Source: a virus. Taken from it: a DNA stretch of 64,000 nt. The position numbers and the translations under genes are program-made. The notes below the pieces were generated by a model. It made no database searches. It saw nothing but the letters and a program-made list of their open reading frames with translations, and was not told the origin of the DNA. Shown here in pieces: positions 40,881 through 42,446 of this stretch. The DNA lies in the IMG/VR virus record IMGVR_UViG_3300044949_001773, positions 1 through 64,000 of that record; one strand, given 5' to 3'. The stretch's first letter is position 1. Each line of letters opens with the position of its first letter.

Positions 40881-40908
40881 AAAGGAGGGTTATTAACCCT
40901 CCTTTTTT
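40881..40908 (+). terminator. Terminator of the hli-petF-prx unit
   Basis: AAAGGAGGGTTA/TAACCCTCCTTT with T6; stem of ten or more pairs. Confidence 0.93.
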
Positions 40909-40936: not shown

Positions 40937-41638
40937 ATGATGCTTATAGACCTTCATAACTTTTTTAAATATTACGACGAAAAAAATCCAAAACATATTG
41001 CTGCCGTAGAGCAATTTGAAAAAGATTTGCTTTTGAAAGCCCAAGAGCTGATGCAGGATGATGCTAACTGGGTGAAAATTTTTAGAACTAAAGAAGATAA
41101 ACCGCAAGCAACTATTTTACCTGTTCCCTTTTATCCACAAACAGATAATTATAGGGATGCGAACAGAACTTGTAACTCTTCTGCTTGTGCGATGTGCCTT
41201 GAGTATTTCAAACCCGGTACCCTAAAAGGACCTAAAGGCGATGATGCCTATGTACAAAAAGTTTTTTCAATCGGCGACACAACTGATCACTTGGTTCAGA
41301 CCAAGGTTCTTGCGTCATACGGTATTAAATCCAGTTTTTCCTACAGCCTTTCTTTTGCTGATCTTGATAGAGAGCTTGCCGCTGGTAGACCTGTTGTTAT
41401 TGGTATTCTTCATCGCGGCCCTTTATCTAACCCCACCGGAGGGCACATGGTAGTTGTAATTGGTAAGACTCCATCTGGAGATTATGTTGTCAACGATCCT
41501 TATGGTTCGTTGAATGATGGATATACTGGTTCGGTAAATAATGGTAAGAGTGTTGTATACAAGCGTAGTGAGCTTTCTCGTAGATGGGTTCCTGGGGTCA
41601 ATGATGGATGGGGTAGAATTTTTGAAGTAAAAAAGTAG
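40937..41638 (+). CDS. C39-like peptidase, upstream part of a frameshifted endolysin
   Basis: 233 residues. Catalytic Cys region PFYPQTDNYRDANRTCNSSA, His in GGHMVVVIGKTPSGDYVVND and the final DPYG. C39-like domains cut peptides, including peptidoglycan cross-links in phage lysins. ATG at 40937 is used (in-frame TTG at 40928 is the alternative). The stop at 41636 comes directly after a slippery A AAA AAG, and -1 slippage would fuse it to the lysozyme domain. Confidence 0.85.
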   Translation: MMLIDLHNFFKYYDEKNPKHIAAVEQFEKDLLLKAQELMQDDANWVKIFRTKEDKPQATILPVPFYPQTDNYRDANRTCNSSACAMCLEYFKPGTLKGPKGDDAYVQKVFSIGDTTDHLVQTKVLASYGIKSSFSYSLSFADLDRELAAGRPVVIGILHRGPLSNPTGGHMVVVIGKTPSGDYVVNDPYGSLNDGYTGSVNNGKSVVYKRSELSRRWVPGVNDGWGRIFEVKK

Positions 41639-41680
41639 AGTCAACGCCACAATCTAAAATCCCTCAATGTGGCGTTGATT
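41629..41680 (+). promoter_or_regulatory. Probable programmed -1 frameshift signal
   Basis: Slippery heptamer A AAA AAG (41629-41635) in the correct phase (GTA AAA AAG TAG), five-base spacer that includes the stop, then a perfect 11-bp stem TCAACGCCACA/TGTGGCGTTGA (41641-41651, 41668-41678) with a 16-base loop. This is the dnaX-type arrangement. After -1 slippage reading continues GTA GAG TCA into the lysozyme frame. Confidence 0.8.
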
Positions 41681-42117
41681 TAATAAAAGAATTCGAGGGA
41701 TGTCATTTAAATGCTTATCCTGACCCATTGACTGGAGGACTTCCGATCACAATTGGCTGGGGTTCTACTAAAGATTTTAACGGAACTTCATTTAAACTTG
41801 GAAGAAAAATAACTCAAGAATATGCTGACAAATTATTAATGTTTGACCTTGAGCAAAGATTTCTTCCTTCACTGCAAAAAATCCCACACTGGAATGAGAT
41901 GACAGATGGAAAAAGAGGCGCTTTGCTCAGCTTTGCTTATAATCTTGGTGCCGGTTTTTACGGTGGCGATAACTTTAATACTATTACTAAACGCTTGAAG
42001 AATAAAGAATGGAACTTAGTTCCCGATGCGTTATATCTATACAGAAATCCTGGTTCAAATGTAGAAGCAGGACTTTCTCGTAGAAGAATTGCTGAAGGAA
42101 AACTTTGGAATTCTTAA
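41635..42117 (+). CDS. GH24 lysozyme domain, reached only by -1 frameshift
   Basis: 160 residues (VESTPQSKIPQCGVDLIKEF...). T4-lysozyme-type catalytic parts: Glu in KEFEGC, Asp eight residues on in YPDP, and Thr in PITIGWGS. The frame has no ATG, GTG or TTG before the catalytic Glu; the only usual start, TTG 41728, lies after it. So the active enzyme is expected as a 393-residue peptidase-muramidase fusion. It would cut peptidoglycan at two bond types. Confidence 0.8.
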   Translation, partial: VESTPQSKIPQCGVDLIKEFEGCHLNAYPDPLTGGLPITIGWGSTKDFNGTSFKLGRKITQEYADKLLMFDLEQRFLPSLQKIPHWNEMTDGKRGALLSFAYNLGAGFYGGDNFNTITKRLKNKEWNLVPDALYLYRNPGSNVEAGLSRRRIAEGKLWNS

Positions 42118-42446
42118 TCGCTATCTTCTACTCTTGTTCTTAGTGCAATTACTGTAGTAAGAATAGTTAATAAAGTTTCATACCCTCTTCTTTCAGATTC
42201 TTTGCAATCTAAAGGTGGAGGGTTTTTTAATTTTCCATTTGCGTTTGCTTGGTTCATAGAACCTGGAAGCATAAAATTACATGAAATAAAATTTACTCCA
42301 ACAAATGTAATTATGGCACAGCAGATAATGAAGATTAATTTATTCAATAATGAACCGTGCTTTTTTCCTACCTCTTTTGGCAGGTCTTCTAATGAATCTG
42401 ATGACTTCTGCTGGTTGTCTTTTTGGTTGAGGTCTTCTTCCTTCAT
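42114..42446 (-). CDS. Small membrane protein next to the lysin (holin or spanin candidate)
   Basis: 110 residues on the minus strand, with AAGGAG before the start. Polar N-terminus (KEEDLNQKDNQQKSSDSLED), one membrane helix (LLNKLIFIICCAIITFVGVN), then a Cys and a C-terminal amphipathic segment (GYETLLTILTTVIALRTRVE). Its position, tail-to-tail with the lysozyme, fits a lysis membrane protein, but this is inference. Confidence 0.6.
   Translation of the reverse strand: MKEEDLNQKDNQQKSSDSLEDLPKEVGKKHGSLLNKLIFIICCAIITFVGVNFISCNFMLPGSMNQANANGKLKNPPPLDCKESERRGYETLLTILTTVIALRTRVEDSD

Follow-up and report, generated by a model that had tools for sequence, protein, structure and literature searches.

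How does a phage make a lysozyme whose reading frame offers no ordinary start codon ahead of the catalytic residue? This question is posed by a 64,000-nucleotide stretch of DNA (hereafter the window), taken from a metagenomic virus record of 131.8 kb, which we place, from its genes and relatives, with the T4-like cyanophages of Synechococcus. In the window, a plus-strand gene for a 233-aa protein (40937-41638) ends in the zero frame with GTA AAA AAG TAG (41627-41638). Read in the X XXY YYZ phase, this end consists of the slippery heptamer A AAA AAG (41629-41635) and, immediately 3' of it, the stop TAG (41636-41638), both on the plus strand. A spacer of 5 bases (TAGAG, 41636-41640) separates the heptamer from the perfect core (41641-41651 with 41668-41678) of a plus-strand hairpin (41638-41681) with a 16-nt loop. 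The -1 ORF spans 41626-42117; from 41635 to 42117 on the plus strand, stop included, it encodes a linker and a GH24 lysozyme. According to the codon list, no ATG, GTG or TTG precedes the catalytic Glu codon GAG (41695-41697) in this ORF, the only near-cognates there being ATC at 41659 and ATA at 41683. Translation computed with a slip at 41635 (40937-42117, plus strand) predicts a 393-aa protein made up of an N-terminal module (N-module), a C39-like peptidase, the linker and the lysozyme. A sequence-only reading of this DNA had described the heptamer in the zero-frame phase, the 5-base spacer and a perfect 11-bp stem, which are exact on the sequence. The complete -1-frame GH24 lysozyme that it reported, with the catalytic Glu ahead of all usual starts, is borne out by the Pfam match and the codon list, and its 393-residue slip product agrees in length with the computed translation.

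The zero-frame protein comprises an N-terminal helical module (~residues 1-50) followed by a domain matching PF13529 (Peptidase_C39_2, 9.9e-14), in which Cys79, His170 and Asp187 are invariant in 41 relatives. Its predicted fold is papain-like, with PDB matches at E about 1e-4 for an AlphaFold model of moderate confidence that used metagenomic loci as input (mean pLDDT 73.8, worst near the active-site Cys); a PDB sequence search using the peptidase profile gave no match. The Pfam match and the Cys/His/Asp residues thus identify the upstream protein as a predicted C39-like (papain-fold) cysteine peptidase. The downstream domain matches PF00959 (Phage_lysozyme, 7.1e-21) over profile positions 1-125 of 125, with 75.3 bits against a cut-off of 22.3. 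The catalytic Glu, Asp and Thr are present as E-G-x7-D followed by T-I-G-W-G, corresponding to E11/D20/T26 in T4 lysozyme numbering, and the window lysozyme aligns with solved phage and bacterial lysozymes, catalytic residues included. By profile and catalytic residues, it is a predicted member of the GH24 phage lysozymes. Tail-to-tail with the lysozyme on the minus strand (42114-42446) lies a gene whose 110-aa product has a single, strongly hydrophobic stretch (~residues 33-55) and no match in Pfam or PHROG; the product is possibly a lysis-membrane protein.

To what extent are the elements of this junction kept together? The comparison drew on IMG/VR and on cultured phages and comprised 143 distinct loci with a homologous peptidase. 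At 67 of the 143, a -1-frame lysozyme adjoins the peptidase gene, and 65 of these 67 carry an in-phase slippery heptamer at the peptidase gene end (61 A AAA AAG, 1 A AAA AAA and 3 T TTT TTT), counts that are non-independent samples because the relatives share descent. The heptamer occurs in none of the 64 relatives with a separate lysozyme gene or with no lysozyme found alongside, whose peptidase genes end in ...WGRIFD (stop), ...WGRVFQP (stop) and similar. The stop near the heptamer is TAG in 49 relatives, TGA in 10 and TAA in 6, mostly placed directly after it. In the other plus-strand ORFs of the window, in-frame A AAA AAG occurs 5 times in 14,077 codons, and none of these copies lies within 28 codons of a stop. 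The junction therefore has what a dnaX-type site calls for in its first element, an X XXY YYZ heptamer in the zero-frame phase before the stop. Alignment of the locus in related cyanophages, which the sequence-only reading had named as a check, found heptamer, stop and stem kept together in dozens of distinct sequences, cultured isolates among them.

Such conservation bears directly on whether the offset comes from faulty sequencing or assembly, with a true gene of seven A's and one open frame. The site is a homopolymer, the window comes from one metagenomic virus record, and two relatives (L247 and L266) do have seven A's rather than six, with both domains in a single frame and the hairpin retained; their seventh A may be a recent mutation or an assembly error. 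Against this explanation, one common frame offset is seen in 56 distinct junctions that lack an overlapping start, including those of independently sequenced cultured phages, and stop and stem are conserved. The S-PM2 junction, GCAAAAAAGTAACC, is identical in the reference and in a separately sequenced deletion mutant, which excludes sequencing error for the family. Three isolate records of S-CAM7 agree on one offset between the two domains; one of these records and two IMG/VR contigs were read as having the T TTT TTT version. Error at the family level was thus rejected on the evidence of independently sequenced isolates, and it is almost certainly not the explanation of the junction. The earlier proviso "or a sequence error" accordingly falls for the family, where S-PM2 was read twice with the same junction, while the window itself is one metagenomic record. 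In GenBank, the lysins of both cultured phages are annotated from an internal start and miss the catalytic Glu, with 72 codons in S-PM2 (S-PM2p154, L158 2457-2675) and 90 codons in S-CAM7 (L163 2448-2720). From the sequences, the true lysozymes of S-PM2 and S-CAM7 are predicted to begin in the -1 frame of the preceding gene, and entry into the lysozyme frame by slippage would explain the truncated GenBank lysins.

Ribosomes might also reach the lysozyme without slipping, by restarting near the TAG after termination or by using a hidden near-cognate start, in which case a free lysozyme and no fusion would be made. Overlapping stop-start codons (ATGA, GTGA, TTGA) in 11 relatives, including S-SRM01, favor this route, several of them having no stem beyond chance, and that subgroup is consistent with a switch to reinitiation; in the window, ATC 41659 and ATA 41683 are candidate hidden starts. 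However, none of the usual start codons precedes the Glu codon in the window or in 25 relatives, and a conserved heptamer phase and hairpin would play no role in such a model. The start candidates in the remaining relatives are weak and mostly SD-less. We consider reinitiation or a hidden start very unlikely to be the main route. The claim that the lysozyme can be made only by slippage holds, as far as ordinary starts are concerned, for the window and these 25 relatives, but not for the 11 with stop-start overlaps, which may reinitiate.

What role could the hairpin have? The window stem has 11 perfect base pairs, or 14 (41638-41651 with 41668-41681) counting G-U and flanking A-U pairs, and RNAfold gives -20.2 kcal/mol for 41636-41700. 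Compared with shuffles of synonymous codons in the -1 frame, the window stem reaches z = 2.8; across 63 distinct junctions, the same test gives a mean z of 2.7, with p < 0.05 in 70%, and z is weak in L009, L025, L248 and L265 among others. On average, though not in every sequence, the shuffles thus rule out that the stem simply follows from the amino acids of the lysozyme. The position of the hairpin is constant and its sequence varies among TCAACxCCACA, GCCAACTAA and CTCTACTCC families, the complement of each family sitting where the lysozyme domain has its first codons. Among the 21 sequences of the family to which the window belongs, 98.6% of cells are paired, as against 30-48% when the register is slid, with two-sided change at four pairs, among them an A-U to G-C change carried by the window. 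The 14 sequences of the S-PM2-like family are paired in 92% of cells and show 8 double-change cells. Slid-register pairing in both stem families together is 30-49%. The stem sequences are related by descent and are not independent trials. Nevertheless, a stem whose sequence changes while its pairing stays is difficult to account for unless RNA structure is under selection. The second dnaX-type element, a predicted stimulatory hairpin a few nucleotides downstream that is conserved as a structure, is therefore also found here. A transcription terminator was rejected as an identity for the stem, there being no T-run behind it and none listed there by the terminator scan. At 40881-40908, shortly before the peptidase gene, a strong palindrome with T's behind it (AAAGGAGGGTTATTAACCCTCCTTTTTT) is likely a transcription terminator following the peroxiredoxin gene.

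The A-run itself would permit another mechanism, transcriptional slippage, in which part of the mRNA gains one A and is translated as an in-frame fusion. Programmed realignment is an established phenomenon on long runs of A or T (PMC3711429), L247 and L266 have seven A's in frame, and the S-CAM7 site has eight T's. Yet six A's are short, the same paper citing runs of more than 7 A's, and the heptamer keeps one codon phase throughout and the hairpin stands at ribosomal spacing, neither of which a polymerase needs. The short run and fixed phase make transcriptional slippage less likely, least so for the eight T's of S-CAM7, and overall we assign it very little probability.

Taken together, the association of the heptamer with the -1 layout, the stem covariation, the absent start, cultured S-PM2 and S-CAM7 and the natural in-frame fusions described below count for frameshifting; the seven-A fusions of L247 and L266, a sister clade free of slip sites, the weak stems at some junctions and the want of a specific SD-like element upstream count against it. 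On balance, the junction is very probably a dnaX-type programmed -1 ribosomal frameshift that joins the peptidase to the lysozyme. We propose that a ribosome arriving at A AAA AAG in the peptidase gene has tRNA-Lys in both its P site and its A site; the hairpin just downstream would slow it there, and both tRNAs could re-pair one base back, on AAA AAA. The majority of ribosomes would halt at TAG, releasing the 233-aa peptidase, and a minority would proceed in the -1 frame to yield the 393-aa protein, so that the lysozyme would be delivered attached to the N-module and peptidase. From this arrangement we infer the occurrence and efficiency of slippage, and that the products would cut host peptidoglycan at lysis. 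The fixed product ratio and the bifunctional enzyme activity put forward in the sequence-only reading are predictions of the same kind.

The decoding environment can be judged in part from host-family genomes. Among those with a tRNA-Lys match, which may not include the host of the window phage, 11 of 12 have only tRNA-Lys(UUU) and one has CUU too; the full host tRNA census covered one metagenomic Cyanobium genome, and the window encodes no tRNA-Lys gene. Having tRNA-Lys(UUU) alone would be favorable to slipping on AAG. An upstream SD-like stimulator is part of dnaX itself and is dispensable in some -1 sites. At these junctions such an element is not specifically present: the G-rich stretch that might be taken for it comes from WGR codons, and its anti-SD pairing is equal in non-frameshift relatives. 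The site is therefore dnaX-type by heptamer and stem only, and of the "dnaX-type signal" originally proposed, the heptamer and stem are conserved and the upstream SD-like element is not specific.

How do relatives lacking this junction make the two enzymes? Among relatives, the alternative ARRANGEMENTS are in-frame fusion, the overlapping stop-start codons and two genes each with an N-terminal module. Natural in-frame fusions with the same domains in the same order occur in L164-L178. They include the sister clade (L170-L178; 8 sequences), with both domains in one frame and no slippery site. One-frame relatives without the signal, which the sequence-only reading would have taken as refutation, do therefore exist, yet the conservation elsewhere stands, and we interpret this clade as an alternative evolutionary state that does not undo it. 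The T TTT TTT clade is nested in the wider fusion clade with strong support, indicating that this slippery site probably had a separate origin. Also among the fusions, ACG-2014f (L164, L165, ~2215-2245) retains an in-phase gcA AAA AAG with a GC-rich GGAGGGTA/TGCCCTCC hairpin 5 bases past the heptamer, and a -1 slip there reaches TGA after one codon, as in the dnaX layout. Such a slip would release the peptidase alone, reversing the logic of the window. The stem is in modest excess over shuffles (p 0.03 and 0.07), and we treat this inverted layout as a lead.

In 44 relatives, DSL-LC02 and DSL-LC03 among them, the lysozyme has a gene of its own, and nearly all of these lysozymes start with their own copy of the peptidase N-terminal module (56% identity in L162). 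The helical module of ~50 aa recurs on separate lysozymes in L162 (1801-3242), L161 and ~40 other loci, and appears to be mobile. In S-CREM1 (L160 1015-2196), the in-frame fusion is reversed, running from lysozyme through N-module to peptidase. These layouts suggest that the lysozyme usually needs joining to the N-module, frameshifting being one of several routes. In S-CRM01 (L167, ~2140-2180), the two parts of a distant lysozyme lie in different frames, with the break near CTAAAAGAAAAAGATGG; as no heptamer in phase was seen there, error or decay is likelier than a programmed shift.

These observations lead us to a broader proposal, which could as easily prove wrong as right: T4-like cyanophages would dose a two-enzyme lysis protein by -1 frameshifting that is conserved and repeatedly re-evolved (mostly on A AAA AAG, separately on T TTT TTT in the S-CAM7 clade, and in an inverted dnaX-like form in ACG-2014f). 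Other lineages would retain both products by splitting the gene and copying the N-module, or through overlapping stop and start codons, the selected trait being the making of both a peptidase-only and a lysozyme-bearing protein. If true, the use of a conserved frameshift to join two enzymes that degrade the cell wall would represent a new means of assembling and dosing an endolysin, one that genome annotations have overlooked and that links a known expression trick to host lysis by cyanophages. S-PM2 on Synechococcus WH7803 offers a culturable system for the frameshift, and the relatives form a natural series of alternative ways to two related enzymes.

Among tailed phages, tail assembly genes are a well-known site of conserved programmed frameshifting. 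The mechanism of -1 frameshifting has been described for dnaX, IS elements and tail chaperones (PMC5009743, PMC3711429), and no endolysin, lysozyme or cyanophage is named in the portion of a 2016 frameshifting review that the analysis covered. Our literature search for frameshifts in cyanophage or other endolysins, which covered subscription papers only in part, returned only a citation of lactococcal phage phi-vML3 and speculation on Ms6 lysA. Within the same limits it found no published description of a peptidase-lysozyme frameshift; novelty is thus not proven, and we present the junction as an apparently new use of dnaX-type frameshifting. The phi-vML3 lysin (Shearman 1994), known here through citing papers, is cited as a frameshift case in PMC10885494 and resembles the window in being a lysin locus with overlapping frames; according to PMC3111421, it differs in pairing a lysozyme-like lysin with a holin-like protein.

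Escherichia coli dnaX has the same A AAA AAG, a hairpin few bases downstream and two products with a common N-terminus, but its shift yields the shorter product with the help of an SD-like element, whereas that of the window would add a second enzyme domain. In IS3-type transposons and tail-assembly chaperones, a -1 shift just ahead of a stop likewise adds a second ORF, although the proteins are unrelated and the window joins two cell-wall-lytic enzyme domains. A true homologue with the same domains in the same order, PHROG 3617 (the 405-aa ACG-2014f protein of unknown function), differs in having them in one reading frame. Two-form endolysins made from one gene by internal starts are also established (PMC9430671, PMC7098653, PMC4777826), and the first of these papers, an endolysin survey, does not mention frameshifting. 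LysIME-EF1 and CTP1L similarly derive a long and a short protein from one endolysin locus, but through an in-frame internal start that gives a short C-terminal binding domain. The window does not follow that scheme, as no start precedes the Glu codon in the lysozyme frame; its frameshift would instead produce a longer protein that carries a second catalytic domain, the N-terminus being common to both products.
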